Positions 2,420-38,672 of a stretch of 64,000 nt of DNA are shown here, piece by piece. The translations under genes and the position numbers were made by a program. Under the pieces are notes generated by a model. That model was not told the DNA's origin. It searched no databases and worked only from the letters and a program-made list of their open reading frames with translations. Origin of the DNA: Candidatus Hodarchaeaceae archaeon (GTDB taxonomy: Archaea; Hadarchaeota; Hadarchaeia; Hadarchaeales; Hadarchaeaceae); the NCBI GenBank assembly GCA_030018135.1, contig JASEGJ010000003.1, positions 27,083-91,082 on the forward strand, in the 5' to 3' direction. Within the stretch, counting starts at the first letter, position 1. Every line of letters begins with the position of its first letter.

Positions 2420-2653
2420 TTGAGAAAATTACTCGTTGAGCTAAGAGCGGGCGAGAGTGGCATCATTGCGGGCGTCACAGGCGGGTTTGGGTTGCAACGG
2501 CGTTTGGCAACTTTAGGGATAAAAATCAACAAAAAAGTCCGAATGATCACTGCTCAACCGTTCAGGGGCCCTGTTGTCGTGGAAGTCGATGGGGCCCGTG
2601 TAGCAATCGGCATGGGAATAGCTTGGAAGGTCCTTGTGGAGGTAACAAAGTGA
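2420..2653 (+). CDS. feoA: FeoA, ferrous iron transport accessory protein
   Basis: A 77-residue SH3-like FeoA domain, the usual length for the family, with a TTG start 7 nt after AAGGAGAG. The central LQRRLATLGI and the C-terminal VAIGMGIAWKVLV match the family pattern. FeoA works on the cytoplasmic side with FeoB and is thought to influence its GTPase or assembly. The stop overlaps the feoB start (GTGA), so the two are translationally coupled. The operon begins with a DtxR-type operator and ends with a DtxR-like regulator. Confidence 0.9.
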   Translation: MRKLLVELRAGESGIIAGVTGGFGLQRRLATLGIKINKKVRMITAQPFRGPVVVEVDGARVAIGMGIAWKVLVEVTK

Positions 2654-4356
2654 GAATACTCCTCATGGGAAATCCAAACGTCGGTAAAAGTGTCGTTTTT
2701 TCAAGGCTGACAGGTACCAGCGTGGTCGTGTCCAATTACCCCGGTACCACAGTTGAGTTCACGAAAGGCACGATGAAGATTGGGGAAAAGAAAGCAGACG
2801 TAATCGACGTTCCGGGGACCTATACCTTGGAGCCAACCACAAGGGCAGAAGAAGTCGCAGTTGAGATGCTTAAAGAAGGCGATGTGGTCATCGATATCGT
2901 CGACGCCACAAACTTGGAGAGAAACCTTTACTTAACGCTTCAGCTATTGGAAAAGAAAGTGCCTGTGATCGTGGCCCTCAACTTGTCGGACGAGGCCAAG
3001 CACAAAGGTATAACTATCGATGTCAAGAAACTCGAGAAATTATTAGACGTCCCAGTCGTTCCCACCGTTGCCATCACTGGAGAGGGGCTCAAAAAACTCG
3101 TTTCTCGCCTGCCTGAAGCCAAAGCACATGCTTACAGACACACCGACGAACAAAGATGGGAAAAAGTGGGCAAGATCGTTGAAGATGTCCAATCAGTAGC
3201 GCATCGACATCATACTTTGGCAGAAAGGCTAGGGGATGCAACCGTTAGGCCCTTAACTGGGATCCCAATTGCCATTGGAATAGTTACACTAATGTTCCTT
3301 GTGATACGATTCATCGGCGAGGGATTGATTGCCAATGTGTTTGATCCAGCGTTTGGGGCCTATGAACCCGTAGCGATGAGGATGAGCGAAGCATTAGGTT
3401 CTGGCGGCCTCCTCCATAATATCGTAATCGGAAACCTGATCGATGGCGGGATAGACTTTACGCAGTCCATGGGCCTATTGACTACCGGGATTTTTGTCCC
3501 GTTCGCAATGGTTCTACCTTACGTGTTTGCGTTTTACTTGGTGCTGGGATTTCTCGAGGATAGCGGCTACTTACCAAGGCTAGGTGTACTTGTCGATAGT
3601 GGAATGCACAGGGTAGGGATGCACGGCCTTGCGGTAGTGCCGATGTTGCTTGGCTTAGGGTGCAATGTCCCGGGAGCTCTTTCTTCCAGAATTCTCGAAA
3701 CTCAAAGGCAAAGGTTCATTGCCCTCACGCTCATGGGGATAGCAGTCCCATGCATGGCCCAGCTCGCCATAATCTTCGGGTTGGTAGGTCCCTATGGCAT
3801 CGGAGCTCTGGCGATGGTCTTTGCAACACTTTTTGTGGTATGGGTGGTGATTGGGCTCTTGCTCAACAAGGTTTTGGCGGGCGAAAGTCCGGAGATGTTC
3901 ACAGAAATTCCGCCTTACCGCATGCCGTATTGGGGGGCAACATTGAAAAAGCTGTGGATGAGGATAAGGCACTTTTTGACCACGGCGATCCCCTTCGTGC
4001 TGCTGGGCGTACTTCTTGTGAATGTATTGTATACTTTGGGGATAATCGACTTCATGGGTGATATCGCATCCCCAGTTGTTGTTGGGTTGCTTGGGTTACC
4101 GCCGGCTGCGGCCGGAGCATTGATAATAGGATTTCTGCGCAAAGATGTGGCTGTAGGGATGTTGCTGCCCCTCGGCCTGAGCATGCAACAGCTGGTAGTG
4201 GCCAGCGTGGTACTGGCGATGTACTTCCCCTGTGTCGCAACCTTCGCCATCCTCTTCAAAGAGTTCGGGATAAAAGGCACGATAAAATCTACTTCAATTA
4301 TGATCGGAATGGCGTTGCTAGTGGGGACTTTACTTAGACTTGTACTCGGTGTGTGA
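2650..4356 (+). CDS. feoB: FeoB, Fe2+ transporter with G domain
   Basis: Starting at the GTG that overlaps the feoA stop gives 568 residues; an upstream in-frame ATG at 2623 lies inside feoA and is less likely. The N-terminal GTPase shows G1 GNPNVGKS (7-14), G3 DVPG (53-56) and G4 NLSD (111-114), the last a variant of NxxD. After a linker, residues from about 205 on form a polytopic membrane domain with the FeoB core motifs [11 protein letters not shown] and GLGCNVPGA. The protein is short compared with bacterial FeoB (about 770) but normal for archaeal forms. It imports Fe2+ across the cytoplasmic membrane. The dtxR gene begins 2 bp downstream. Confidence 0.95.
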
Positions 4357-4357
4357 G

Positions 4358-4786
4358 ATGCCATCGGTAAGTATCGACGAATATCTGGAAGTCCTGTGGA
4401 CTCTACGGGTCGATAGAAATCAGCCCGGAAAGATAAGGGATGTCGCAAAGTTATTAAAAATCGCGCCGCCAAGTGTGTTCCAAATGTTCGAAAAAATGAG
4501 AATGCAGGGGCTGATTAAATATGACAAGCGCTCTGGGGCAGATTTCACACGAAAGGGAAAGAGGAGGGCCAGACATATTGTGAGAAGTCACAAGCTTGTG
4601 GAAAAACTCCTCGTTGACATCGTGGGCGTTAAACTCGGTGAGGTGGAACGTCCCGCTTGCGGCGCCGAGCATTATCTGCCAGAAGAAGTGGCTGATGCGA
4701 TATGTATTTATTTGAAACATCCGCGCGAGTGTCCACACGGAGATCCGATTCCGAAGGGAAAATGTTGTCCTCAGAGGAAAGTTTGA
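4358..4786 (+). CDS. DtxR/MntR-family metal-dependent repressor
   Basis: A 142-residue protein starting at an ATG 1 bp after the feoB stop. It has an N-terminal winged helix (about 1-65, with VAKLLKIAPPSVFQM as the DNA-reading helices) and a dimerisation/metal-binding region. PACGAEHYLPEEVADAI and CPHGDPIP (about 125-132) are hallmark metal-site segments of DtxR family members. The C-terminal SH3-like domain is missing, as in MntR-type short forms. Together with the palindrome before feoA it probably closes an iron-responsive feedback loop. The tail KGKCCPQRKV adds two cysteines of unknown role. Confidence 0.9.
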   Translation: MPSVSIDEYLEVLWTLRVDRNQPGKIRDVAKLLKIAPPSVFQMFEKMRMQGLIKYDKRSGADFTRKGKRRARHIVRSHKLVEKLLVDIVGVKLGEVERPACGAEHYLPEEVADAICIYLKHPRECPHGDPIPKGKCCPQRKV

Positions 4787-4790
4787 GGGC

Positions 4791-4827
4791 GCCGATATAG
4801 GACCATTGCACAAAAACCTATATTGGC
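4791..4827. repeat. Inverted repeat between dtxR and the DUF134 gene
   Basis: GCCGATATAGG (4791-4801) and CCTATATTGGC (4817-4827) form an 11-bp inverted repeat with one mismatch around a 15-nt loop. It lies 4 bp after the dtxR stop. It could be a terminator hairpin for the feo operon or an operator for the next gene; the right arm contains a TATA-like CCTATATT. The loop includes ATTGCACAA, part of a motif that recurs upstream of other genes in this cluster. Confidence 0.5.
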
Positions 4828-4855
4828 ACGAGTAATTCTCTTCTATGGGGTTAGC

Positions 4856-5203
4856 TTGTACCAATGGCGTCGCGGTCGGCGAGGGGGACCTGGAAGGCCG
4901 ATGAAACCCAGGTTCTTGAGCTTCAGGCCCGAAGCGATAACGTTTATGCCATCCGCTCCAATAGGGCCACCAATCGCGGGCGAGCCGATCTACATGACTT
5001 ATGACGAGTACGAGGCCTTTCGCCTGATTTATCACGAAGGGCTGAACCAGGAGGAGGCCGCCAAGCGGATGAAAATTTCGCGTGGGACGGTGTGGCGCTG
5101 CTTAGAGAGCGCGAGGAATAAGGTTGCCTGCATGCTCGTCGAACGCCGCCCGCTCGTGGTCACGTCTGCACCTCCTCGACCTCCAGAGGAGACAGGCACT
5201 TGA
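4856..5203 (+). CDS. DUF134 helix-turn-helix protein
   Basis: A DUF134-family protein of about 115 residues. The family's N-terminal pattern is recognisable in GRRGGPGRPMKPR, followed by YMTYDEYEAFRLIYHEGL and a sigma-70 region 4-like HTH, EEAAKRMKISRGTVWRCLE. I place the start at the TTG at 4856, which puts the basic GRP motif near the N terminus. An in-frame TTG at 4823 would add 11 residues but falls inside the inverted repeat. DUF134 proteins are uncharacterised presumed regulators that recur beside NifX-domain and Mrp/MinD ATPase genes, as here. The stop overlaps the next TTG start. Confidence 0.85.
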   Translation: MYQWRRGRRGGPGRPMKPRFLSFRPEAITFMPSAPIGPPIAGEPIYMTYDEYEAFRLIYHEGLNQEEAAKRMKISRGTVWRCLESARNKVACMLVERRPLVVTSAPPRPPEETGT

Positions 5204-6039
5204 GCCAAGTCGATAGAATACGGCTCACGGTTTTGGTTGACGATTCCAAGAACCCGATCAGACCCGAACTCACAGCCAAGCACGGGTTGTCCTTCTTCAT
5301 CGAATTGAAAGCTGGCAGACACACAACTAGTCTGTTGCTGGATACCGGGCCGTCCGCCGATGTTGTCCTACAAAACGCTCGGAAGCTCGACATCGATTTG
5401 AGGAAGGTGGATTCTATTTTCCTGAGCCACGGACATTACGACCATACCGGTGGGCTCTTGGGCGTCCTAAAACACATCGGCAAAAAGGTACCTGTGATAG
5501 CCCACCCAGAGGCGCTTGAGCCAAAATTTGCGAGGAGGAAGAAGCGTCTCAAAAAGGCCGGCATCCCTTTTCAAGTTTCAGAGTTGCAGAGATCGAGCGG
5601 CATCTTAACTCTAAAACGGGGGTCGACTTCCGTAGCGCCCGGAGTTTGGGTGAGCGGGGAAATCAAAAGAGTCAGCCCATTTGAAGAGGTAAAGGGGTTC
5701 AAGGTTATGAGGCGGGGCAAACTCGTAGAGGATTACATGCCGGATGATCAGGCTCTTTTCGTGAGGGTCAAGGGCAGGGGGCTGGTGGTCATCACGGGTT
5801 GCGCTCACGCGGGGTTGATAAACACGATCAAGCAGGCGCAAAAGGTAACGGGTTCGAGCGGCGTGTATGCGGTCGTTGGTGGGTTTCACCTAGCTGGAGC
5901 AAGTGCGGGAAGGATAAATGCAACCATTGAGGAGCTCCAGAAAGCTGGCGTGAAAGCTGTCATGCCATGTCACTGCACGGGAAAGAAGGCAATCACAAAG
6001 TTCTCGAAGGTCTTTGGAAAAAAAGTGCAACCAGCTTAG
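5200..6039 (+). CDS. MBL-fold metallohydrolase
   Basis: A 279-residue metallo-beta-lactamase fold protein. The di-metal signature SHGHYDH occupies residues 76-82 and LLLDTGPS (45-52) precedes it; further ligand segments are ITGCAHAG near 200 and PCHCTGKKA near 255. The last resembles the subfamily related to MptA-like/dihydropterin phosphate hydrolases and other COG1237 proteins. The TTG start overlaps the DUF134 stop (TTGA), so the two genes are coupled. The substrate is unknown; COG1237 members often accompany NifX and Mrp genes. Confidence 0.85.
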   Translation: MSQVDRIRLTVLVDDSKNPIRPELTAKHGLSFFIELKAGRHTTSLLLDTGPSADVVLQNARKLDIDLRKVDSIFLSHGHYDHTGGLLGVLKHIGKKVPVIAHPEALEPKFARRKKRLKKAGIPFQVSELQRSSGILTLKRGSTSVAPGVWVSGEIKRVSPFEEVKGFKVMRRGKLVEDYMPDDQALFVRVKGRGLVVITGCAHAGLINTIKQAQKVTGSSGVYAVVGGFHLAGASAGRINATIEELQKAGVKAVMPCHCTGKKAITKFSKVFGKKVQPA

Positions 6040-6073
6040 AACAGGTAATGTAATCATTCTAAGCACCAAAAAG

Positions 6074-6101
6074 CTTTTATAGAATTATGTGCAATAGCAC
6101 A
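6074..6101 (+). promoter_or_regulatory. Promoter with TGTGC-N4-GCACA operator-like palindrome
   Basis: A TATA-like CTTTTATAGA (6074-6083) is followed by TGTGCAATAGCACA (6088-6101), a 5+5 bp palindrome with a 4-nt spacer. It lies 26 bp before the ATG at 6128, at the place expected for the transcription start. The TGTGCAAT core also occurs reversed at 4805-4812 before the DUF134 gene and direct at 11255-11262 before the Mrp gene. That makes a shared regulator, possibly DUF134, plausible. Confidence 0.55.
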
Positions 6102-6127
6102 AATAGTACAAATAGAGGTGGTAACGA

Positions 6128-6391
6128 ATGTGGTGGCCGGGTTTCGGCTGGGGTCGAGGCTGGTTTGGACCTTGGCCAGGCAGAGGGCCTTTTAGCTATC
6201 TGCCCCCATGGCAGAGACCCGGGTGGTGGTTTGGTCGAGGAGCGTGCTGGTGGCTCTTCGGACCTTGGGCGTGGTCGATGTTCGGATACCCATGGAGTGG
6301 ATACCTAGGAACCTACGGGTTTGCTCCGTACGCGATGCCACAGTACCCCTACCAAAGATACGTACCATACCCTTATCCGGGATACTGGTAA
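6128..6391 (+). CDS. Small Trp/Gly/Pro/Tyr-rich protein
   Basis: An 87-residue protein with an excellent AGGTGG Shine-Dalgarno 6 nt before the ATG. It contains about 14 tryptophans plus many Gly, Pro, Tyr and Phe, in repeats such as GWGRGWFGPWPGRG and YPYQRYVPYPYPGYW. It has almost no charged residues, one Cys and no signal peptide. Overlapping frames are shadows. It is not recognisable as a known fold; similar W- and G-rich or DUF5320-like small proteins accompany NifX/MinD clusters. A metal- or surface-binding scaffold is a guess. Confidence 0.75.
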   Translation: MWWPGFGWGRGWFGPWPGRGPFSYLPPWQRPGWWFGRGACWWLFGPWAWSMFGYPWSGYLGTYGFAPYAMPQYPYQRYVPYPYPGYW

Positions 6392-6414
6392 ACAAACAAA
6401 AGGAGGTCAAAAGT

Positions 6415-6732
6415 ATGTGGTGGCCTAGAGGTTGGAGATGTTGGTGGTGGTATATGAATCCATACATGTACCCACCCTACCTACCATACGTGCAAGCGCC
6501 GCAGCAACCCTCGCAACCTGCGCCGCAACCCACGCAGCCCGCAACAGTACCTTACTACCCGCTCCCACCGTTCATGCCTCCTCCACCGACGCCCGAGCAA
6601 GAGATCGAAGCGCTGGAGGCATACAAAAGCGAGCTCGAAGAGGAACTCAAGGGCATCGAGGCGAGGATAAAAGAGTTGAGGGAGTCCCTAGGCAAAGGAT
6701 CCAGCGGTCAACCATCTGAAACCGGAAAGTGA
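6415..6732 (+). CDS. DUF5320-like small protein with C-terminal coiled coil
   Basis: A 105-residue protein preceded by AGGAGGTC 6 nt before the ATG; a longer upstream frame has no such signal. The N terminus WWPRGWRCWWWYMNPYMYPP is Trp/Tyr-rich like its neighbour. A Pro/Gln-rich linker (about 22-60) leads to a charged coiled coil, EAYKSELEEELKGIEARIKE, near residues 67-95. The arrangement (aromatic/glycine N part, Glu/Lys coiled coil) matches DUF5320 proteins, which have no known function. It sits between the W-rich gene and the NifX genes, in one operon. Confidence 0.75.
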   Translation: MWWPRGWRCWWWYMNPYMYPPYLPYVQAPQQPSQPAPQPTQPATVPYYPLPPFMPPPPTPEQEIEALEAYKSELEEELKGIEARIKELRESLGKGSSGQPSETGK

Positions 6733-6736
6733 TAAA

Positions 6737-7102
6737 TTGGGGCTTAAAGTGGCAGTTGCCACGAAGGGGCTCAAAAGCCTAGAGGATGAAGTATCAGATG
6801 TCTTCGGCAGAGCTCGAGCCTTTGCAATAGTCGAGACCGAGGGAGGTCAGATCAAGAACGCAAAAGCTGTGGAGAATCCCGCAGCTTCATACGAGTACGG
6901 AGCTGGACCGATAGTCACAAAAATGCTCGCCGACATGGGAGTCGAGGTCGTGATCGCTGGCGAGTTCGGTATGGGGGTGTCAGTTCTCCTCAAGGATAAG
7001 AATATCCGTGCAGTCAAAGTTAGAGCTGGAACAAATGTCTGCCGGGCCGTGGATAGTGAATTAAGTGAGAAACAAACTTCGGAGCGATTGTCATGCGGGT
7101 AG
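6737..7102 (+). CDS. NifX/NafY-type metallocluster-binding domain protein
   Basis: A 121-residue protein with a TTG start 4 bp after the previous stop. It is a single dinitrogenase iron-molybdenum cofactor domain (RNase H-like fold, PF02579), recognised from the pattern VAVATKG...VSDVFGRARAFAIVE...GAGPIVTKMLADMGVEVVIAGEFG. Such domains bind Fe-S or Mo-Fe/Mo-Cu clusters; no nitrogenase genes are present here, so a nif role is unlikely. The last ten codons overlap the start of the tandem NifX gene in another frame. Confidence 0.85.
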   Translation: MGLKVAVATKGLKSLEDEVSDVFGRARAFAIVETEGGQIKNAKAVENPAASYEYGAGPIVTKMLADMGVEVVIAGEFGMGVSVLLKDKNIRAVKVRAGTNVCRAVDSELSEKQTSERLSCG

Positions 7103-7971
7103 CCATCCCATCAAATAAGCCTGGCGGACTGGATGCTGCGGTCTCCCCCCATTTTGGTCGTTGTGATGTATTCACGATAGTTAAAATTGAAAATGGCAAG
7201 GTAGTGGATGTAAGCGTTGTTGAAAATCGAGGGACACATTTCGGCTTTGGAGCAACACCTGCGGAAATCTTGGTTTCGAACGGCGTAGATGCGGTATTAG
7301 CTCAGGGTATGGGACCTAAGGCCCTGCAGCTCTTGGCACAAAGCGGTATCACAACGTACATGGCCTCGGCTCAAACGGTTGGAGAGGCTGTGCGCGAGCT
7401 GGTCGAGGATAAGGTCAGGCTGGCTACAATCGAGGAAGCGTGCAAAGAAGCAAGAGAACCTTGGTTGCCTCCGGCCCCTATCATGCCCGGTGTGGGGATG
7501 GGGATGGGCCGTGGAATGGGAAGGGGGGGGAGAATGATGGGTCCCTCTCCTTATGGTCCCGCTTACCCACCGATGATCCCCCCAACGCCGTATCCTCCAC
7601 AAATGCCGAAACCTTCTCCCCCACCAACAGGCCGCTTTAAAGTGGGCGTCGCAAGCCAGGGGCCAGGGGGACTCGACGACATGGTATCGCCGATCTTTGG
7701 CAGGTGCCCGAGCTTTACCATCGTCGAGATCGAAGGGAGAGAAATTAAAAATGTAAAGGTGATACCGAATCAATTCGTTTCTACGCCTCGCGGTGTGGGA
7801 ATCGCTGTGGTCCAGATGCTAGCAAGCGAAGGGGTGAAATTTATTTTGGCCGGACGATTTGGCCCTTGGGCATCCTCAACTTCTAGTCAATTCGATATCC
7901 AAATGGTCATGGTCCCGCCCGGCGTGAGGATTAGGGACGCTATCAACCAATACATCATCGGCTCACGCTAG
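7093..7971 (+). CDS. Tandem NifX-domain protein
   Basis: A 292-residue protein with two NifX-type domains (about 1-110 and 185-290). Each begins with VAIPSNKPGGLDAAVSPHFGRC or a similar block and contains the VVQMLASEGVKFILAGRFG-like helix/strand. The joining linker (about 135-180) is rich in Gly, Met and Pro (GMGMGRGMGRGGRMMG, then Pro/Tyr repeats), a possible flexible or metal-binding segment. The FGRC cysteine in both domains could serve as a ligand. The ATG overlaps the previous gene by 10 bp and the next gene starts 1 bp after its stop. Confidence 0.85.
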   Translation: MRVAIPSNKPGGLDAAVSPHFGRCDVFTIVKIENGKVVDVSVVENRGTHFGFGATPAEILVSNGVDAVLAQGMGPKALQLLAQSGITTYMASAQTVGEAVRELVEDKVRLATIEEACKEAREPWLPPAPIMPGVGMGMGRGMGRGGRMMGPSPYGPAYPPMIPPTPYPPQMPKPSPPPTGRFKVGVASQGPGGLDDMVSPIFGRCPSFTIVEIEGREIKNVKVIPNQFVSTPRGVGIAVVQMLASEGVKFILAGRFGPWASSTSSQFDIQMVMVPPGVRIRDAINQYIIGSR

Positions 7972-7972
7972 G

Positions 7973-8878
7973 GTGCAGCGATTGAAGGAAATTGTGATCG
8001 CTAGTGGAAAGGGTGGAGTCGGTAAGACTACGGTCGCTGCATCGCTTGCAGTTTTTTTGGCCAAAGCCGGGACGAAAATCGTTGCAGCTGATGCAGATGT
8101 TGATGCACCGGATCTCTTGTTGGCGCTGGGTGGCGGAAAGACAATTTCCTCAACCGAGATCGAAGCTTCAGAAAAAGCGGTGGTCGACGGGTCGAAATGC
8201 ACTGGATGTGGTAATTGCGTCAGCGCTTGCCCGTTCGGCGCGATTGTGGTGCAGAATCGTCGACCAACCGTTGTGCGGCTCATGTGTGAGGGTTGCGGCG
8301 TGTGCGAGGTTGTCTGCCCCGTCAACGCAGTTGAGGTGAAAAAGGCGGTGACGGGCACCCTGAAAATCGAGGATACTAAGTACGGATTCCCGTTGGTGAC
8401 TGGGTACCTGAGGCTGGGCGAACACAATTCGGGGCACCTCGTAGCGAGCGTAAAAAAATCCGGGCGGAAGACGGCTGAGGATTTGGGGGCAAGGGCGCTC
8501 GTGGTCGACGCAGCGCCGGGTATAGGTTGCCCAGTGATCGCTTCGATCTCGGGAGCCAGCTATGTTATTGCTGTTACCGAGCCGACGCCTGCCGCCAAGC
8601 GGGACCTAGAACGCTTGGTCAAAATCATAAAACACTTCGGGGTCTCGGCGGGAGTGGTGATAAACAAGGCGAACCTCTCGGACGACTTCAGGGATGCGCT
8701 TGAGGACTGGGTAAAGCATGTGCTAGGTTATCAAATTTTAGGCGAGATCCCCATCGACTACGAAGTTGTTAAAGCTCTGGTGAACATGGTGCCGGTCACT
8801 GAGTTTAATCCAAACGCTGAAGCATCGAAGATCTTGACTGCGATAGCCAAACGCGTGCGAGATGAGGTTTTACTATGA
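7973..8878 (+). CDS. MinD/Mrp-type P-loop ATPase with 2x[4Fe-4S] ferredoxin insert (ORP3/ORP4-like)
   Basis: A 301-residue ATPase with a GTG start. The deviant Walker A GKGGVGKTT is at 12-20. A bacterial-type ferredoxin domain is inserted after the first strand block, with clusters C76-79-82-86 and C105-108-111-115 (CTGCGNC, CEGCGVC). The second half carries VVDAAPGIGCPVIASI (Walker B/switch) and INKANLS. This architecture is found in paired ATPases beside NifX-domain proteins and in the Desulfovibrio ORP operon. It probably moves electrons or Fe-S clusters in an ATP-dependent way, which is inference. It overlaps the paralogous next gene by 4 bp (ATGA). Confidence 0.9.
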   Translation: MQRLKEIVIASGKGGVGKTTVAASLAVFLAKAGTKIVAADADVDAPDLLLALGGGKTISSTEIEASEKAVVDGSKCTGCGNCVSACPFGAIVVQNRRPTVVRLMCEGCGVCEVVCPVNAVEVKKAVTGTLKIEDTKYGFPLVTGYLRLGEHNSGHLVASVKKSGRKTAEDLGARALVVDAAPGIGCPVIASISGASYVIAVTEPTPAAKRDLERLVKIIKHFGVSAGVVINKANLSDDFRDALEDWVKHVLGYQILGEIPIDYEVVKALVNMVPVTEFNPNAEASKILTAIAKRVRDEVLL

Positions 8879-9828
8879 AACCCGGCGGGGAGGTGTCAGC
8901 GAAAGTGCTCAGGAAAAAGAGCGTGAGCGTGCCCATGATAGCAGTCACCGGCGGAAAGGGCGGCACGGGCAAAACCACGGTTGCGGTGAATTTGGCCGTG
9001 GGGTTGAGTTTGAAAGGCTCTAAGGTCATGCTGGTCGATGCCGACGTTGACTGCCCCTGTTGCGCGATGTTGCTCGGAACCGAACTGAATGCTAGCGAGG
9101 AAGTCAGAGTATTTAAGCCAGTGATCGATGCGGCGAAGTGCACTGGATGTGGAAGGTGTGTGGAAGTCTGTCGGGAACATGCATTGGTAGGGCTTGAGGG
9201 GCAAGTCCCATCACTTTTCGAAGAACTTTGCTCCGGGTGTAAAGCGTGTCAGCTCGTTTGCGAAGCCGGCGCCATGAAGAGCGGTCAGAAAGTTCTCGGT
9301 ACCATCTACGTCGCAGATTCAAATGGGATTAAACTGGTGGTGGGCGAACTCAAACCGACCGAGCCGAGGTCGCCGATCGTGGCGCGCGCGACCATGCTCA
9401 AAGCCGCTGAGGAGCTTAAGCTTGACAAACACGATATCGTAATCGTGGACACCGCTCCGGGGATTCATAACGTGGTGGCTCAAGCCCTTTGGGAAGCCGA
9501 CCTAGCGCTGGCTGTGACTGAGCCGACCCCACTCGGAGCTCACGATCTGGGATTCATGTTAGACCTCACCGAGGAACTGGGGTTGCCGACCGAGGTCATC
9601 CTGAACAAGGCCGACATCCCAAGCGGTTTGAAGGATAAGGTGGTGAAGACGAGCCGTGATCGGGGAGTTAAAATCGTTGCGGAGATACCGATGGACGAAG
9701 AGCTGTTGCGCTCCTACGTTTCGGGTGAGCCGCTCGTGAGAAAATCACCCAAGAGCCCAGCTGCAGCTGCAATGTTAACTCTGGTTCCGCACATTCGTGA
9801 AATGTTTGTAAAGGGAGGTGAAACCTGA
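8875..9828 (+). CDS. Second MinD/Mrp-type ATPase with ferredoxin insert
   Basis: A 317-residue paralog of the preceding ATPase. Walker A GKGGTGKTT is at 27-35, and the ferredoxin cysteines are C89-92-95-99 and C119-122-125-129. An extra Cys cluster DVDCPCC (about 57-63) follows the first switch region. VDTAPGIHN and LNKADIP mark the second half of the nucleotide site. The coupled pair (ATGA overlap) probably acts as a heterodimer, as for other paired ferredoxin-MinD proteins. A 9-nt gap after AGGGAGGTG would suit the next gene, whose ATG overlaps this stop by 1 bp. Confidence 0.9.
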   Translation: MKPGGEVSAKVLRKKSVSVPMIAVTGGKGGTGKTTVAVNLAVGLSLKGSKVMLVDADVDCPCCAMLLGTELNASEEVRVFKPVIDAAKCTGCGRCVEVCREHALVGLEGQVPSLFEELCSGCKACQLVCEAGAMKSGQKVLGTIYVADSNGIKLVVGELKPTEPRSPIVARATMLKAAEELKLDKHDIVIVDTAPGIHNVVAQALWEADLALAVTEPTPLGAHDLGFMLDLTEELGLPTEVILNKADIPSGLKDKVVKTSRDRGVKIVAEIPMDEELLRSYVSGEPLVRKSPKSPAAAAMLTLVPHIREMFVKGGET

Positions 9829-10037
9829 TGGCGCAACCACCCACCCCACCACCGCTGCCAACTAAAAAGTTTCAATGTTTTGCCTGCGGGAACATCATAG
9901 AGGTGCCTCAGGGGATACCCAAGCCACCAGCGTGCTCTAGGTGCGGCGCTCCGGCGGTAATGATTCATCGTGTTGACAAGGGGCCGCCGGGTGGAAGACG
10001 CGGCGCTGCGGGCCCACCTTGGGCTCAGCAAGGCTGA
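9828..10037 (+). CDS. Small zinc-ribbon/rubredoxin-like protein
   Basis: A 69-residue protein with a strong GGGAGGTG before its ATG. Two CxxC knuckles (C17-FA-C20 and C36-SR-C39) 16 residues apart form a rubredoxin-like zinc ribbon. They are framed by a Pro-rich N terminus and a Gly/Pro/Arg-rich tail. It is translationally coupled to the ferredoxin-MinD ATPase. Such ribbons often close NifX/MinD operons; they could bind zinc or iron. No more specific function can be given. Confidence 0.75.
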   Translation: MAQPPTPPPLPTKKFQCFACGNIIEVPQGIPKPPACSRCGAPAVMIHRVDKGPPGGRRGAAGPPWAQQG

Positions 10038-10122
10038 TTTAGTTGGGCCGTGGAACCAAAATCACTGAAAGAAGGGATAGATGTTTACGGCAAGGAGAAA
10101 CTACAAAAATTGGTGAATAAGA

Positions 10123-10971
10123 GTGAGGATCTATTTAGATTGCATCCCGTGCTTCGTGAGGCAGGCTTTGGAAGCGAGCAAGATGGCTACGAGGAACAAA
10201 AACAAACAAGAAAAAGTCTTGAAGAAAGTTTTATCTGAGATTGGGAAAACTTCGTTAAAAAACAAGATACCATCTGATATTGCTCATAAAGTTCACCGCA
10301 TAATCAGAAAAATGACAGGGAATAACGATCCTTACAAGAAATTGAAAGACCAGTGCAACAGAAAAGCGCTGAGGATGTACCCGGACCTTAAACAAAAGGT
10401 CGCTGGGTCTAAAGATAGATTGCTGACGGCGACAAAACTCGCCATAGCTGGAAACATTATCGATTTTGGGCCCGGTTCTGAGTTCAATCTGGAGAAAACA
10501 ATAGAGGAAGTTCTAGTTCAGGATTTCGCTATAAATCATTTTAATCGGCTTAGGGAAGCGTTGCAAAAATCTGAAAAGATTGTATATTTAGGAGACAATG
10601 CAGGTGAGATAGTTTTCGATCGGATTCTCTTGGAAGAATTGAAGGATAAAGAGATCACATTTGTGGTCAAAGGAGGGCCCATCATAAATGATGCAACGGT
10701 CGAAGATGCAAAATTCGCTGGCATAGACAAAATTGCTGAGATTAAAACAATAAGCAATGGGGAGCCTGGCACGGGGCCGAAGAGAAATTCAAAGGAATTT
10801 ACAAATTTCTTAAAAAGCGCCGATGTCGTGATTAGCAAAGGGCAGGGAAACTATGAAGCCTTAAGCGAAGTGAACGCGAACATATTCTTCTTGCTCAAGG
10901 TGAAGTGCCCAACGATTGCTGGGGATATCGGAGTTAAAATTGGTGGTATCGTCGTAAAACAATCGTGTTAG
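10123..10971 (+). CDS. DUF89/ARMT1-like metal-dependent phosphatase
   Basis: A 282-residue DUF89 protein with a GTG start. The family's N-terminal motif is LDCIPCFVRQA with C7 and C10. The metal-binding aspartate region reads VYLGDNAGEIVFD, about residues 155-170, followed by FVVKGGPIINDATVEDA. Family members are damage-control phosphatases acting on sugar phosphates or modified metabolites with Mn/Ni/Co. Its base composition is more AT-rich than its neighbours. The 85 bp before it contain no supported gene. Confidence 0.85.
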   Translation: MRIYLDCIPCFVRQALEASKMATRNKNKQEKVLKKVLSEIGKTSLKNKIPSDIAHKVHRIIRKMTGNNDPYKKLKDQCNRKALRMYPDLKQKVAGSKDRLLTATKLAIAGNIIDFGPGSEFNLEKTIEEVLVQDFAINHFNRLREALQKSEKIVYLGDNAGEIVFDRILLEELKDKEITFVVKGGPIINDATVEDAKFAGIDKIAEIKTISNGEPGTGPKRNSKEFTNFLKSADVVISKGQGNYEALSEVNANIFFLLKVKCPTIAGDIGVKIGGIVVKQSC

Positions 10972-10991
10972 TTGGTTGAGGCGATCCCAAG

Positions 10992-11156
10992 ATGTCGGAG
11001 ACCAAGCTCGTGAGCGCCTGCCTTTTTGGGGTCAACTGTAGTACGACGGTCAAAACAACTTTAACGAGAAAGACAAATGCTTGAAGGTCAGGCGGCAGCG
11101 CTCCGGCAGCAATTGGATCAATCAAGAAGAGGCTTGAAGAGCTCAGCAAAATGTAG
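10992..11156 (+). pseudogene. DUF523/TudS-like desulfidase remnant
   Basis: The ATG at 10992 opens with ETKLVSACLFGVNC, the hallmark start of DUF523 (2-thiouracil desulfurase family, normally SACLLGVNCRYDG). The frame then breaks: the expected YDGQNNFNEKDKCLKV is read in another frame from about 11040. A third frame near 11090-11156 encodes SAPAAIGSIKKRLEEL followed by a stop. Only about 55 codons remain of a roughly 150-residue family, so the middle is deleted as well as shifted. The rest of 10972-11278 shows no other gene, apart from the promoter motif at 11255-11262. Confidence 0.75.
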
Positions 11157-11278
11157 GGCCCAATCGTCTTATCAATGAGTCCGACAACAGGGGTGAAAAA
11201 GTGCTACGATAAGTGTGTAGCCTCATCTTGAATCAGCTGGATACACATTTATTTTGTGCAATCGCCAGAAAAAAATGA

Positions 11279-12136
11279 ATGGTGGGGCAAGTAGAAGAAA
11301 GGATGAAAGAAATACAGGAACAGGAAAGGCGCCTCAAAATACGGATGGCCAAAATCAAGTATAAACTGGCGATACTGAGTGGAAAGGGCGGGGTCGGCAA
11401 GAGTACCATCACCGCTAATTTAGCCATTGCTTTTGCACGCAAGGGTCACAAGGTGGGTGTTTTGGATGTTGATATTCACGGCCCGAGTATTCCCAAAATA
11501 CTCGGCATGAGGGGGCAGGAGTTGACTGCAGGGCGGCTTGAAGGTGTGGGCATCTTTCCGGCCAAAGGTCCGCTCGACATCAAAGTCATCTCCATGGATT
11601 TCCTCCTCCCAGATGACGAAACCCCGGTTATTTGGCGCGGTCCGATGAAGATGGGTGCGATCAGGCAATTTTTGGCGGATGTGGCGTGGGGTGACTTGGA
11701 TTTTCTGTTTATTGATGTCCCGCCAGGAACTGGGGACGAGCCGCTCAGCTTGATGCAATTGTTGCCAGACATCACGGGTGTCATCGTAGTAACTGCACCA
11801 TCCGAGGTTTCTCAGATCGTCGTCAAGAGAGCAGTAGGATTTACAAGGGAGCTGCACGTGCCGGTGGTTGGCATCGTAGAGAACATGAGTGGGTTCGTTT
11901 GTCCAAAATGTGGTGCAGAATTCGACATTTTAGGAACTAGTGGTGGGCAAAAAATATCAGAGCAACTTGGCATCCCATTTTTGGGCAAGATTCCAATCGA
12001 TCAAAAGATATGTGAGGATTCAGACAGGGGAACGCCTTTCGTCATCGAGCGTGCTGAAACTCCGGCGGCTAAGGCCTTCATGCGAGTGGTTGATAAAGTG
12101 GAGGGGTATTTAAAACAACTGGGAGTGCGGGCTTGA
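11279..12136 (+). CDS. Mrp/Nbp35-family Fe-S cluster carrier ATPase
   Basis: A 285-residue ApbC/Nbp35/Mrp protein. A charged N-terminal helix of about 27 residues precedes Walker A GKGGVGKST (35-43). VDIHGPSIPKILG and FIDVPPGTGDEPLS are diagnostic for Mrp, and CPKC near residue 210 supplies the bridging [4Fe-4S] ligands at the dimer interface. It assembles and delivers Fe-S clusters in the cytoplasm. The upstream region holds TTGTGCAAT (11254-11262), shared with other promoters in this cluster. The stop overlaps the next TTG start. Confidence 0.9.
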   Translation: MVGQVEERMKEIQEQERRLKIRMAKIKYKLAILSGKGGVGKSTITANLAIAFARKGHKVGVLDVDIHGPSIPKILGMRGQELTAGRLEGVGIFPAKGPLDIKVISMDFLLPDDETPVIWRGPMKMGAIRQFLADVAWGDLDFLFIDVPPGTGDEPLSLMQLLPDITGVIVVTAPSEVSQIVVKRAVGFTRELHVPVVGIVENMSGFVCPKCGAEFDILGTSGGQKISEQLGIPFLGKIPIDQKICEDSDRGTPFVIERAETPAAKAFMRVVDKVEGYLKQLGVRA

Positions 12137-12891
12137 TCGTCGACGAGTTATTGGGTCTGGTCGGGGAGCGGAGAAGCCAGCTAGAAGACCTGACGCTCTC
12201 GAGGGTATGCGTGAGCCTCTGCTATACCGCGGTGATGCTCGATAACGGCTACGTTGGGCTCTGCCACACGCCTACCGAGGACATTGCACACACTCATTGG
12301 GGCCGCAGGCGGGACTTCCACGGCTTCAAGGCCTTGGAAATCACGCGCCTGGCGAATTCGCTTGACATGATTGAGAGGACCGTTGGCATAGCGGCATTGA
12401 ACGCCCTCTCACAGTACCTGATGGACTCTGAAGGTTATGAGCGGCAGTTTGGAATGGACGCCTTTAATGCGATAGATGTAAAGGAGGAAGACAGCGCCGC
12501 GGTGGTTGGGTACATGAGGCCCCTAGTCGGGAAGCTGAGGGCAAAGGCCCGCGAAGTCCACGTTTTCGAACGCAACCCCCAATTGAGGGGGGATGCCCTG
12601 CCTGATACTTTTGTCGACTCGATATTGCCGAAAGCGGATATCGTGGTTATAAGCGGGTCGAGTTTAGTCAATGGAACCCTTGATAGGTTGCTGGAGCTAT
12701 CCAAAAGAACTAGATTCGTGATTTTTGCAGGGCCAACGGCCAGCACTTTACCAGAGCCTCTTTTCAAGCGGGGTGTAAGCGTCGTGGCGGGCGTTCGCGC
12801 GAAAGGTCCTAAGGTGATGGGTGCAGTAGCCGAGGCCAAACCATTCGTGGCATTCAAACAGCTTGTGGAGAAGTATATTTTAAGGAGATGA
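12133..12891 (+). CDS. DUF364 (putative heavy-metal chelation) protein
   Basis: A 252-residue protein coupled to mrp by a TTGA overlap. The N-terminal DUF4213-like part is about 1-100 (VCVSLCYTAVMLDNG). The C-terminal Rossmann-like DUF364 part has the family motif VVISGSSLVNGTLDRLLEL (about 170-190) and IFAGPTASTLPE. Family members are linked to metal handling, often next to Fe-S or molybdopterin genes; the ligand is unknown. Its place after Mrp supports a role in metal or Fe-S homeostasis. Confidence 0.8.
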   Translation: MIVDELLGLVGERRSQLEDLTLSRVCVSLCYTAVMLDNGYVGLCHTPTEDIAHTHWGRRRDFHGFKALEITRLANSLDMIERTVGIAALNALSQYLMDSEGYERQFGMDAFNAIDVKEEDSAAVVGYMRPLVGKLRAKAREVHVFERNPQLRGDALPDTFVDSILPKADIVVISGSSLVNGTLDRLLELSKRTRFVIFAGPTASTLPEPLFKRGVSVVAGVRAKGPKVMGAVAEAKPFVAFKQLVEKYILRR

Positions 12892-12911
12892 AAACAGCCT
12901 AAGGGGTAAGA

Positions 12912-13520
12912 GTGAATCGGCTTAAGCACATCGCTGCAGAGCTCAAAGAGCATGCACCTTTCACCGCTTTTGGAGCGGGCGTAGGGATGGTTGTAATGGC
13001 TGTTGTGTGTCTAACCAAACCCGACCCAGAGGTCTCTCACCACACCTTCCACGTCCTGCATCCCGCCCACATGCTACTGAGCTCGATCGTGACCGCCGCG
13101 ATGTTCAGGCTGCATAGGAGGGGTGTCAGATCCTCGATAGTCGTCGGACTCGTGGGAGCAGCGGGAATATGCGCGATAAGTGACATATTGTTCCCCTACG
13201 TGGGAGGTACTTTGCTCGGGGCTAGGATGACTTTGCACGTGTGCCTCTTAAAGCACCCGTGGCTCGTGCTTATACCAGGAGTCGTTGGCGCGACAATTGG
13301 TGCCCTTACACGCCGCCCTACCAAGTGCCCGCACGCGGCGCACGTGCTAATAAGCACCCTCGCATCGCTCTTCTACCTCATGGCGTTTGGGGTGGTGGAT
13401 TGGCTCCCGGTGTTTCCGCTCGTATTCGTGGTACTGTTCATAGCGGTATGGATCCCATGTTGCACCAGTGATATCGTGTTTCCCCTCTTGTTCGTGAGGG
13501 AAGGGAGGCATCGGAGGTGA
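12912..13520 (+). CDS. Unknown polytopic membrane protein
   Basis: A 202-residue protein with a GTG start preceded by AAGGGGTAAGA. I count about five hydrophobic segments (near 17-35, 45-62, 72-92, 105-125 and 140-185). Between them lie conserved-looking polar residues: HHTFHVLHPAHMLLS near 43-57 and WIPCCTSDIVFPLLF near the end. The His cluster at the start of a helix and the paired Cys could bind a metal. I do not recognise the family. It lies between the DUF364 and thioredoxin genes, within the metal/Fe-S cluster. Confidence 0.65.
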   Translation: MNRLKHIAAELKEHAPFTAFGAGVGMVVMAVVCLTKPDPEVSHHTFHVLHPAHMLLSSIVTAAMFRLHRRGVRSSIVVGLVGAAGICAISDILFPYVGGTLLGARMTLHVCLLKHPWLVLIPGVVGATIGALTRRPTKCPHAAHVLISTLASLFYLMAFGVVDWLPVFPLVFVVLFIAVWIPCCTSDIVFPLLFVREGRHRR

Positions 13521-13524
13521 CCTC

Positions 13525-13920
13525 GTGGACGAATTGGATGAAATACGCAAGAGGGGGATGAAAGAGCTGATGCGGAAATATTTGGGGAAAAAGGAAGCGT
13601 TTGGCAAACCCATTCAGGTCACGGACGAAACATTCGACCGAGTCATCAAGGCCCATCCCGTAGTCGTGGTGGACTTCTGGGGTGAGTGGTGCCCGCCATG
13701 TCGCTTAATCGCGCCAATCATCGAGGAGCTCGCAAGGGATTACGCAGGAAAGGTGATATTCGGGAAGCTGAACGTCGATGAGAACAAAGCTACCGCGGTG
13801 AGGTATGGTATAACGGCGATCCCGACCTTACTGATTTTTAAGAACGGTAAGCTGGTCGACCAAGTGCTCGGCGCTGTGTCGAAGCGGCACTTGGAGGAAA
13901 AAATTAGAAAAACGATTTAA
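13525..13920 (+). CDS. Thioredoxin with CPPC active site
   Basis: A 131-residue thioredoxin with a GTG start; the first 30 residues are a charged extension. The active site is WCPPC with C56 and C59, instead of the usual WCGPC. The cis-proline loop AIPTLLIF and FGKLNVDENKATAVRYGI follow the standard fold. The CPPC variant usually alters redox potential. A ferredoxin:thioredoxin reductase subunit lies at 47968-48249 and might reduce it. It begins 4 bp after the membrane protein gene. Confidence 0.9.
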   Translation: MDELDEIRKRGMKELMRKYLGKKEAFGKPIQVTDETFDRVIKAHPVVVVDFWGEWCPPCRLIAPIIEELARDYAGKVIFGKLNVDENKATAVRYGITAIPTLLIFKNGKLVDQVLGAVSKRHLEEKIRKTI

Positions 13921-14358: not shown

Positions 14359-14937
14359 ATGGTAAATTGTGTATCTTGCGTGGAAAAAGCGTGTTCAAGA
14401 GGGAACCCATGCCCAGTCGGCGAACCTTTGAAAAAATTTGCATTCAAATTCAAGGAATACCGCAAAGCGGGCAACTTGAAGCTCTATCAAAAATCCAGCT
14501 CGCTAGAAGTCGAAGGGTACATGAGATACCCCCGGGTGAAAGAACCCATCCGGCTGGCAGAGGGGATGGGCTGGAATAAACTGGGGATGGCCTTTTGCAT
14601 AGGTCTTTCGGAGGAGGCGAAGAAGCTGCAGGAGGTACTGAAGTGCACGGTTTTGAAGTTCATTCGGTTGTGTGTAAAGTTGGTGGCGTTGAGAAGGAAA
14701 AATTCTCTTCCCGAAAGGAAAAGATCACGCATGCAATCCAATTCTCCAAGCGATGGTCCTCAACGAGGTTGGAACGGATTTGAACGTCATCGTGGGTCTT
14801 TGCATCGGCCACGACACCTGTTCCAGCGGTATTCGAAGGCTCCGACGACGACGCTCATAGTCAAGGATCGAGTACTGGCTCACAATCCGGTCGGGGCCCT
14901 CTACTCGAGATACCACTTCAAAAAGTTGTTGCGGTAG
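14359..14937 (+). pseudogene. DUF1847 metal-binding protein, three frame breaks
   Basis: The N-terminal part (CVSCVEKACSRGNPCP, then EVEGYMRYPRVKEPIRLAE and MGWNKLGMAFCIGLSEEAK) matches DUF1847 well. The frame then shifts three times by one base, near 14641, 14733 and 14825. The successive pieces are [35 protein letters not shown] and [17 protein letters not shown], each a clear continuation of the family. Each break moves the frame in the same direction, so the original frame returns at the end. It is either a decayed gene or one with three base-call errors within 200 bp. Confidence 0.8.
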
Positions 14938-15732: not shown

Positions 15733-16062
15733 TTACTTGGGTTCGTTGGTGCCAAGAATAAAATCCGAGCCCCGCCTTTCTCTCCTCTTCCCGTCTCCCA
15801 CTAGCAAAGAGTCGAACACCACTGATCGACAATTTTCTCCAAGCCTTCCCTTTCGTCGATATCAATGCCGCCACACGAGCCGCCTGGGCTTTACTCTGCA
15901 CGAGGATCACGCCTGCCCTTTCGAGTTTTCTTCGTTGCACCGATAGGTTTTGCGGATCGCGGGGTGTGTCAAATCGAGGCGACAATGCTCAAGTGCCCCT
16001 TCTCTGCCCCCACGGCATGCTTTGCTTCACCGATCGCTTTTGCGAGTTCATCCGCTGGGTTT
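15733..16062. other. Non-coding or decayed stretch, no confident gene
   Basis: No frame here has a supported start and good homology. On the minus strand, 15780-15985 reads LSVQRRKLERAGVILVQSK and QAARVAALIS, which looks like part of a larger protein. It is interrupted by stops on both sides in other frames, so it may be a gene fragment. Plus-strand open frames are low in complexity and have no ribosome site. Confidence 0.4.
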
Positions 16063-16352
16063 TAAAGGCCTCTCGGATGGAGTGGCATGTGCTTTTGCTC
16101 GGGCCAAAACCTTCACGATCCTCGATGTAGGGGGCAGAAAGGTTCAGGTGAAAGTCATCGCCAACCGGCAATTTCTGCGAGCGCGGCCGCGGACGGGCGG
16201 TAGTTCAAATGCTTTCGGAGGAGGGCGTGGATGTTGCGATCGCGGGCGAGTTCGGCCCGGGGGCGGCGGCATTTCTCCAAAAGAATAGAATCGACACGGT
16301 CGTGGAAAAAGCCGGCACTAAGGTTGTCGACTTGCTGAGGGGCAAATATTGA
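16063..16352 (+). pseudogene. NifX-domain protein remnant
   Basis: From about 16063 the plus strand encodes GLSDGVACAFARAKTFTILD and VKVIANR, the first half of a NifX domain. Near 16165 the frame shifts, and AVVQMLSEEGVDVAIAGEFG to DLLRGKY completes the domain up to TGA at 16350-16352. The usual first strand (VAVATxG) and a start codon are missing. It is closely similar to the intact NifX gene at 6737-7102, so it is probably a decayed paralog from the same family expansion. Confidence 0.8.
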
Positions 16353-37436: not shown

Positions 37437-38672
37437 CTACAGGATCCTTTTCGCTGTTATGTCGATTATTTTCTTGATTTCGCTCTCCAGCGCATCAGGG
37501 AGCCCGAGGATGCTGGCATCCATGAACCCCCTTACTATCAGCGATTGGGCCTCCTCTTCGGAGAACCCCCTCGCCATTAGATATCGTATCTGGTCCCCGG
37601 CTATCTTGCCGACCGCCGCCTCGTGCGAGAGCTCGGTTCCCTTGACCCTCGCGACGAGCTCAGGGATCGCATGGATGGACGCGTCGTCGGAGAGCAGGAG
37701 GCCCCTGCATTCGAGGTGTGCTTTGCTATCTTCATGTTCCCCCACCAAAAGGCCTCGGGCGTAGATTTGCGCGCTGTCAGATGCTAAAGCGCGGGCGATG
37801 ACCTCTCCCCTGCTACCCGCGCCCTGGAGGATCACCTTGGACCCGATATCCAAATAGGAATTTCCAGCTCCGTAAAAAATCGCGTTAAATCTAGCCCTTG
37901 AGTTATCTCCTTTGCAATACGCAACTGGGTACATCTGGAGGCTCTTGACTGGCTTCAGGCAAACGTAGTTGTTCACGAACGTGGCGTTGTCCTCCAGCAG
38001 CGCCGCGGTTCTAGGGCGGACGTCAAAATCTTGGGCCCAGTTGTGGACCATGGTGAAGGTGAGCTTCGCCCCCTCCTTCACGAAGAACTCGGTAATTCCG
38101 ACGTGCAACCCCCGCTTGACGTCTGGATGGATGGTGCAGCCAGTTATTATCTGAACCTCCGAGTTGGGCTCCGCTACTATGAGGTTGTGAACGTTCTGGT
38201 TCAGATTGTCCTTGGAGATGAAGAGGCACGCCTGCAGGGGGAGGTCGACCTTCTGGCCTTCAAATATCCTGATGAAGTAGCCCTGGTCCCACTTTAACTC
38301 GGCCAAGGTAGTGTACTTGTCCTGGTTCACATCGATGATTTTCCACCAATAGTCCCCTACCCAGCCGTATTTTTGAAGGGCCTCTTGGGTACTCATTATT
38401 TCTGTCTTTCCTTCCAACGCCCTTTGAACTCCTTGAAAGACCACCGAGTGATCCATCTGAAAATATGTGCCTGCCCTCTTCCCTTCATCGACCCTAACCC
38501 CAACGCTTAGGGCTTGCCGCAGGATATCCTCCGGCAGACCTGAAATTGGGCAGGGGGCCCACGGCCTCGCATCCCTTGAGAAGCTTTCGACATCTAGGTC
38601 AGGGCCAAGCTTGGATGACCTTTCTTTGGCCCTCAGCGCGGCTTCCTTGCTTCGGGGCATCTCTCGCACCAC
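37437..38672 (-). CDS. sufB: SufB/SufD-family Fe-S scaffold
   Basis: A 411-residue SufBD protein, part of the SUF Fe-S assembly scaffold. The right-handed beta-helix core carries IITGCTIHPDVKRGLHVGITEFFV, FTMVHNWAQDFDVRPRT and GSRGEVIARALAS. The C-terminal part has LSHEAAVGKIAGDQIRYLMARG with the conserved HEA motif. In archaea SufB alone often pairs with SufC. Its first 40 bp overlap the 3' end of sufC. Confidence 0.93.
   Translation of the reverse strand: MVREMPRSKEAALRAKERSSKLGPDLDVESFSRDARPWAPCPISGLPEDILRQALSVGVRVDEGKRAGTYFQMDHSVVFQGVQRALEGKTEIMSTQEALQKYGWVGDYWWKIIDVNQDKYTTLAELKWDQGYFIRIFEGQKVDLPLQACLFISKDNLNQNVHNLIVAEPNSEVQIITGCTIHPDVKRGLHVGITEFFVKEGAKLTFTMVHNWAQDFDVRPRTAALLEDNATFVNNYVCLKPVKSLQMYPVAYCKGDNSRARFNAIFYGAGNSYLDIGSKVILQGAGSRGEVIARALASDSAQIYARGLLVGEHEDSKAHLECRGLLLSDDASIHAIPELVARVKGTELSHEAAVGKIAGDQIRYLMARGFSEEEAQSLIVRGFMDASILGLPDALESEIKKIIDITAKRIL

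Follow-up and report, generated by a model that had tools for sequence, protein, structure and literature searches.

The closest characterised counterpart of the gene cluster described in this study is IssA (PF2025/SipA) of Pyrococcus furiosus, a protein that stores iron and sulfur as thioferrate nanoparticles. The IssA tail has a Pro-rich part followed by a Gly-rich, cationic and aromatic one, contains a single Cys and shows a conserved W/G/R pattern; ferredoxin has also been reconstituted from the thioferrate of IssA (PMC5524996). In Palaeococcus pacificus, IssA/SipA (log2 6.2), a second Fe-Mo-cofactor-binding (NifX) protein (4.3) and two proteins described as "CobQ, iron-sulfur cluster binding" (PAP_06425 and PAP_06430; log2 3.7 and 3.4) are among the top sulfur-induced genes; Mrp/NBP35 (log2 2.2) and feoAB are sulfur-induced along with them (PMC6981617). 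From its description, the CobQ pair is probably a ferredoxin-MinD pair. As tabulated in one survey, two Hadesarchaea genomes hold no FtnA/Bfr and one IssA homologue (PMC8351635 Table 5), and in its account of Methanococcus voltae another study lists two IssA-clade proteins as more abundant on pyrite (PMC9431491). The other comparable system is the ORP complex of Desulfovibrio vulgaris, where a NifX-fold protein is encoded together with two ferredoxin-MinD ATPases and Mrp (PMC6345978). The cluster analysed here lies in a stretch of 64,000 nucleotides (the window) of contig JASEGJ010000003.1, within a 1.11-Mb archaeal draft genome (45 contigs, 93% complete), and we conclude with moderate confidence that it encodes an iron- and sulfide-controlled Fe-S storage and delivery system working like IssA, in which the IssA tail is supplied in trans.

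The genes form a co-directional block of DUF134, a metallo-beta-lactamase-fold (MBL) hydrolase, the W-rich proteins W1 and W2, NifX1, a tandem NifX, two ferredoxin-MinD ATPases, a zinc ribbon, Mrp, DUF364/DUF4213, a membrane protein and a CPPC thioredoxin. All of these had been named in an initial annotation of the window and were found in the same direction at the coordinates below; that annotation missed feoA-feoB-dtxR (2420-4786) and a DUF89 gene (10123-10971), and the block in fact begins upstream of DUF134 with a DtxR-type box (2384-2405) followed by feoA, feoB and dtxR up to 4786. The features, with sites on no particular strand marked as palindromes, are as follows:

2384-2405, palindrome: DtxR/IdeR-type palindrome AAATTAGGCATGCCTAATTT just upstream of feoA (box match)
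2420-2653, + strand: feoA-like gene, 77 amino acids (aa), recognised by size and position, no family model match
2623-4356, + strand: feoB, ferrous iron transporter (FeoB_N, Gate, FeoB_C), true start probably ~2650
4364-4786, + strand: DtxR-family metal-dependent repressor (family match)
4805-4813, - strand: half-site TTGTGCAAT upstream of DUF134 (sequence match)
4823-5203, + strand: DUF134 regulator with sigma-70 region 4-like helix-turn-helix (66 bits), candidate repressor of the W1 promoter
5200-6039, + strand: MBL hydrolase (domain match)
6088-6101, palindrome: predicted operator TGTGCAATAGCACA, directly downstream of the W1 TATA box (palindrome search, conservation)
6128-6391, + strand: W1, 87 aa, free-standing protein resembling the IssA tail (composition, alignment, selection)
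6415-6732, + strand: W2, with W-rich head, Pro-rich middle and DUF5320 coiled coil (profile match below cut-off, selection)
6737-7102, + strand: NifX1, a single Nitro_FeMo-Co domain without a W/G/R tail (domain match, tree)
7093-7971, + strand: tandem NifX, two domains with a disordered GMGRGMGRGGRMMG/Pro-rich linker (domain match, fold model)
7973-8878, + strand: ferredoxin-MinD ATPase 1 (family match)
8875-9828, + strand: ferredoxin-MinD ATPase 2 (family match)
9828-10037, + strand: zinc-ribbon protein with Gly/Arg-rich C-terminus (match below cut-off, conserved in relatives)
10123-10971, + strand: DUF89/ARMT1-like damage-control phosphatase (246 bits)
11060-11154, + strand: Wb, frameshifted remnant of a third W-rich/DUF5320-type gene (intact in relatives)
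11254-11262, + strand: half-site TTGTGCAAT upstream of Mrp (sequence match)
11279-12136, + strand: Mrp/NBP35 Fe-S carrier ATPase, single domain (family match)
12133-12891, + strand: DUF4213/DUF364 putative heavy-metal chelation protein (family match)
12912-13520, + strand: membrane protein with conserved His/Cys, Hadarchaeota-only among the genomes searched
13525-13920, + strand: thioredoxin, CPPC (family match)

The overlapping or near-zero spacing initially ascribed to these genes does not hold throughout: there are gaps of 88 nucleotides (nt) before W1 (6040-6127, with a promoter), 85 nt before the DUF89/ARMT1-like gene and 307 nt before Mrp, the last containing the Wb remnant.

With respect to IssA, the locus shares the NifX-fold domain, the W/G/R-rich, Pro-rich, cationic and aromatic one-Cys tail chemistry and the link to iron and sulfide. 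It differs in that the tail chemistry resides in two free-standing genes, whereas in IssA it forms the C-terminus of the NifX protein, and in that tandem NifX, the ferredoxin-MinD pair, Mrp, thioredoxin and feoAB-dtxR are added. Thioferrate, demonstrated for IssA, is predicted for the Hadarchaeota locus. As a strict definition of IssA places the tail on the same chain, the locus is classed as working like IssA and not as encoding an IssA protein. The putative IssA homologues reported in archaea (PMC8351635, PMC9431491) are IssA-clade NifX proteins, found in 1/2 of the Hadesarchaea genomes tabulated; where those papers treat them, detached tails, DUF5320, DUF134, MinD pairs, operators and gene neighbourhood are not mentioned.

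W1 consists of 16% Trp and 18% Gly, with 37% aromatic residues overall, no acidic residue and one Cys. That W1 and W2 might be chance open reading frames was rejected, as the ratio of nonsynonymous to synonymous substitution rates (dN/dS) is ~0.1-0.4 wherever computable, well below 1 and indicative of purifying selection, each gene is preceded by its own Shine-Dalgarno-like sequence and the promoter is conserved; the two small Trp-rich proteins first noticed in the raw sequence are thus genuine. W2 matches DUF5320 (PF17253) with its C-terminal helix only, at 24.8 bits against a cut-off of 27, and its orthologue in genome G012 scores 27.5, with neighbours in the frame. NifX domains in two genomes that we take to be Thermococcales (G032 and G054, with Alba and RpiA near-identical to Pyrococcus PDB proteins) carry tails such as GPGWGRGWGRGWGRGRGFGRGWGRGGRGWGARLGYCPWTG. 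W1 and its orthologues are more aromatic than these IssA tails (30-41% vs 21-23%) and poorer in Gly (17-22% vs 23-27%); both groups are net positive with one Cys each, and the repeat GFGWGRGRGWGRGWFGPWPGRG of W1 orthologues is like the IssA-tail pattern. Alignments of the W1 family to IssA tails score above shuffled W1 in most pairs (z 1.1-4.6 by orthologue), and for a DUF5320 protein from a different archaeon the score against the same tails is z 8.2-8.8 (0/500 shuffles).

The same modules occur joined in other archaeal loci, as NifX with a GMGRG tail and a coiled coil (L043), NifX with a coiled coil (L048), a W1 head with a DUF5320 coiled coil (L045, L047) and a W-rich segment with a zinc ribbon (L101). 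A strict complementarity, by which each genome would carry its tail either in cis or in trans, is not clean, since in some genomes NifX lacks a tail and DUF5320 is missing too. As separate observations, a small membrane protein with a GRGYGRF-type N-terminus is encoded directly downstream of Thermococcales IssA (L049 8169-8402, L052 6135-6356), and CDF cation-efflux transporters with a C-terminal NifX domain (L053 7157-8407, L054 3128-4372, L101 6090-7388, L102 2901-4100) adjoin NifX and ferredoxin-MinD genes in several archaea, where they may be FeS-sensing exporters.

The NifX-fold domain (IPR003731/PF02579) is recognised in the NifX proteins of the locus at 57-131 bits. In the model of the tandem protein, positions 122-173 form a disordered linker between two NifX domains; the structures closest to it belong to NifX-fold proteins, ORP and MTH1175 among them. 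No cationic, aromatic, Gly-rich C-terminal tail is present on NifX1, and the tandem protein has only its internal GMGRG/Pro linker. In the NifX tree, NifX1 and domain 2b group with GMGRG-tailed NifX of Thermococcales (moderate support, 88/90), and ORP is unplaced. The closest named relatives of the tandem protein are nearly all "Hadesarchaea" (Hadarchaeota), one, at 72% identity, bearing a bacterial label. A role in nitrogenase or FeMo-cofactor biosynthesis was rejected, with a score of 14.8 bits for the NifX-family (nifX) model against a cut-off of 112 and no nitrogenase component (PF00148) in the whole draft genome; the lack of nif genes, previously remarked on for the immediate vicinity, therefore extends to the genome.

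The promoter of W1 provides a further link to IssA. A search for TGTGCAATNGCACA in 61 genomes returned 10 sites in 9 Hadarchaeota genomes, where ~0.2-0.4 would be expected, and one site in one unrelated genome; every Hadarchaeota site closely precedes W1, or W2 in genomes that lack W1, with none elsewhere in the 28 genomes of the phylum. In L042 the promoter surroundings have diverged between families and the palindrome is unchanged. Within 624 kb of fetched loci, each of the 11 exact TGTGCN4GCACA sites precedes a W gene or the IssA gene of G032 (11/11; 0.33 expected), and at both W1 and this Thermococcales IssA gene the site follows the TATA box. In G054, sites with one mismatch precede IssA and the GMGRG-NifX, and in G037 they precede DUF5320 (two sites) and Mrp; others stand before Hadarchaeota DUF5320b, Mrp in L038 and the G032 MinD pair. 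That the palindrome acts as an RNA hairpin is less likely, because it sits downstream of the TATA box but ahead of the point where transcription should begin.

DUF134 genes were detected in all genomes with operator-bearing W1 or W2, with the one exception of G013, in which the contig breaks off at the promoter, and three other archaea have a strong palindrome at the promoter of the DUF134 gene itself; together these observations make DUF134 the likely reader of the operator. Strong palindromes are found at only some DUF134 and DUF5320 promoters of other archaea (mononucleotide shuffles did as well in 0/300 cases for G040 and G051, and in 9-11/300 for G035, G057, G045 and G042), so that an archaea-wide DUF134-operator rule remains a lead. 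Both DUF134 (PF02001) and DUF5320 recur beside NifX in other archaea; the literature searched gave no function for either, and the roles assigned here are provisional.

Control by iron is suggested by a second class of sites. A predicted DtxR-type palindromic box, ATTAGGCATGCCTAAT, precedes feoA in the operon that also holds dtxR, and exact boxes of the form TTTAGGNNNNCCTAAA precede dtxR-feoB in relatives. In G034, DtxR-type boxes lie over the promoter of a NifX-MinD-MinD operon (TTTAGGTTAGCCTAAA) and at the DUF5320 promoter (TTAGGTTGACCTAA), and further boxes of this type adjoin the TGTGC sites of the G032 MinD pair and the G054 NifX gene. DtxR-like palindromes with arms of 6 are common by chance (45-55/300 shuffles); the weight of these short boxes comes from their match to the known box sequence and from their position.

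The neighbourhood search proposed in the initial annotation showed that the genes are not scattered. The order DtxR/FeoB-DUF134-MBL-W1-W2-NifX1-tandem NifX-MinD1-MinD2-zinc ribbon-DUF89 is kept wholly or largely in L035, L036, L037, L040 and L041, and is followed in L035/L095 and L083 by MBLb-DUF5320b-Wb-Mrp-DUF364-membrane protein-thioredoxin. Compact loci (L045, L047) comprise feoB, dtxR, DUF134, MBL, one W protein and one NifX, to which L045 adds the membrane protein and thioredoxin. Among genomes with both genes, DUF134 and NifX are no more than 8 kb apart in 9/14 Hadarchaeota (0.2 expected) and in 7/10 other archaea (0.3 expected). This proximity, the recurring order in related genomes and the selection on W1 and W2 argue that the cluster is not a product of chance. 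DUF134 is also within 4 kb of FeoB in 8/15 Hadarchaeota (0.1 expected) and in 0/11 genomes outside the phylum, which marks the FeoB-beside-DUF134 arrangement as lineage-specific. The FeoB of the window is only ~33% identical to those of G004, G010, G006 and G002, which are 86-93% identical to one another; the slot beside the DUF134-MBL block is thus filled by two different, distantly related feoB-dtxR pairs, and their independent association with it argues that the block is functionally tied to iron.

The membrane protein, with conserved His and Cys residues, was found in Hadarchaeota only (16 genomes) among 101 genomes searched, and adjoins feoB or a dtxR gene in genomes without the NifX block (L078, L080, L081, L089). 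A fold search returned a weak similarity to TRIC-like structures, from which no function is claimed (best Z 9.7 over 133 residues, rmsd, or root-mean-square deviation, 3.1, 11% identity), which is below the telling level of the tool for helical bundles. A second copy, 59% identical, occurs in the same genome away from feoB (L090 6875-7471, G000 contig 11). The SufB core is also present in the genome, with SufB and an adjoining SufC-like ATPase at 37437-39352 (- strand), 24 kb from the locus.

Three decayed genes that the initial annotation missed were recognised in the window, namely Wb, a DUF1847 pseudogene and a NifX pseudogene. The frameshifted DUF1847 gene (14359-14930), whose frameshifts may alternatively be assembly errors, has intact copies between CMD and radical SAM genes in the relatives L045, L083 and L095. 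The decayed NifX gene (16060-16350) is nearest to the NifX of compact loci (L045) and suggests that a second NifX block formerly stood there. Ahead of mrp, a stretch of ~90 nt (window 11150-11250; also L035, L036, L040, L041 and L083) is conserved although the preceding W-rich gene has decayed in the window. An Rfam scan of 2-17 kb returned no known RNA, the window holds no tRNA, and a search of a plasmid collection gave just four weak NifX matches.

Considering these observations together, a plausible course of events can be proposed. Fe(II) would be imported by FeoAB under the control of DtxR as iron sensor, and the single and tandem NifX domains would nucleate an anionic, thioferrate-like iron sulfide from iron and sulfide. 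The cationic, aromatic, Trp/Gly/Arg-rich W1 may then wrap the iron sulfide and the DUF5320 coiled coil of W2 may cross-link it, so that the two proteins would do in trans the job of the C-terminal tail of IssA. Thioredoxin could supply the polymer-breaking thiol, as a cellular counterpart of the dithiothreitol used in vitro, and the ferredoxin-MinD ATPases and Mrp would reduce the clusters and deliver them to apo-proteins and SufBC. As a repressor of the W1 promoter, DUF134 probably controls access to the storage genes.

Several points weigh against this interpretation. The proteins of the locus are known from sequence, and that DUF134 reads the operator and represses the W1 promoter, likely as it is, is something that we infer. 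The W1 of the window itself aligns to IssA tails modestly above shuffles (z 1.5-2.4), the likeness between W1 and these tails is in part compositional, and the comparison was made with Thermococcales counterparts recognised by domain and tail, not with P. furiosus IssA itself. The NifX tree leaves the IssA clade unresolved at its deep forks, and any part that ferredoxin-MinD pairs, MBL or DUF364 play in IssA function is hypothetical. The apparent absence of ferritin, considered next, is based on a draft genome that is 93% complete.

A rather unlikely alternative is that the locus serves Fe-S assembly and delivery only, with NifX proteins carrying small clusters and W-rich proteins acting as structural organisers or condensate formers around no mineral store. 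This would fit the presence of ferredoxin-MinD and Mrp, which are cluster-handling ATPases, and the several archaeal NifX near MinD pairs that are tail-less and lack a DUF5320 close by. However, the W1 operator is common to the promoter of an IssA, a proven mineral store (PMC5524996), W1 and W2 are the first genes behind a regulated promoter, and a family search that detected ferritin in 14/14 control genomes found none in the draft genome.

The initial annotation had favoured an archaeal ORP-like system that builds or carries an unusual metal-sulfur cluster. On this reading, the NifX proteins would contain a heterometal cluster, Mo-Cu-S or another, and the ferredoxin-MinD ATPases and Mrp would mature it as in the Desulfovibrio orp cluster. 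The ATPases, Mrp and NifX-fold proteins are indeed common to the locus and the orp cluster (PMC6345978), and ORP aligns to the second domain of the tandem NifX (E 7e-9). By sequence appearance, two proteins in the window (34719-36629 and 48346-50172) resemble AOR, the tungsten-type aldehyde ferredoxin oxidoreductase, making W/Mo cofactor use likely in this organism. On the other hand, Mrp (285 aa) matches positions 1-249 only of the 365-position MrpORP model, with 349 of 450 bits, and ends ahead of the Di-Nase domain, so it is no two-domain MrpORP; no sigma-54 regulator or control was seen, and W-rich proteins, feoAB-dtxR, DUF134 and thioredoxin are absent from the described ORP genes. MrpORP is absent, no sigma-54 regulation was seen, the tree shows no specific closeness to ORP, and all independent links found (the neighbouring feoAB-dtxR, the DtxR boxes, the operators common to IssA promoters and the published co-induction with IssA and feoAB) point to iron. 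The Mo-Cu reading is therefore unsupported and improbable, and what stands of the earlier proposal is a single conserved, metal-sulfur-themed locus without nitrogenase genes that has ferredoxin-MinD ATPases and Mrp in common with the Desulfovibrio cluster.

Equally improbable is iron-sulfide detoxification or efflux, in which NifX and W-rich proteins would trap FeS formed from Feo-imported iron and sulfide and the membrane protein would export or sense metal: the CDF-NifX fusions of other archaea, the position of the membrane protein beside feoB or dtxR genes and the proposal, as cited in PMC6981617, that sipA acts in iron sulfide detoxification are in its favour, but re-use is suggested by the Mrp, ferredoxin-MinD and thioredoxin genes of the locus, and ferredoxin reconstitution from IssA thioferrate is on record (PMC5524996).

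Beyond the storage and delivery system proposed for this locus, many archaea may keep iron and sulfur in an iron-sulfide mineral bound to protein. Such a system would have two or three components: small W/G/R-rich proteins (DUF5320 and its relatives) would be detached, interchangeable IssA tails assembling with NifX scaffolds that lack one, and DUF134 would be a dedicated repressor of the regulon alongside DtxR. This generalisation is tentative and falls a little short of evenly balanced. For iron storage in strict anaerobes without usable ferritin, IssA is the one characterised answer in the literature searched, known from one organism. The locus described here would be a variant of IssA-type storage with detached tails, wired to iron uptake genes. 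The operator TGTGCN4GCACA provides a sequence handle for finding the regulon. If the tail acts in trans, DUF5320 and other W-rich reading frames, DUF134, the zinc ribbon and NifX-adjacent ferredoxin-MinD pairs would gain a common function, with a bearing on how archaea use Fe-S minerals in sulfidic, early-Earth-like settings.

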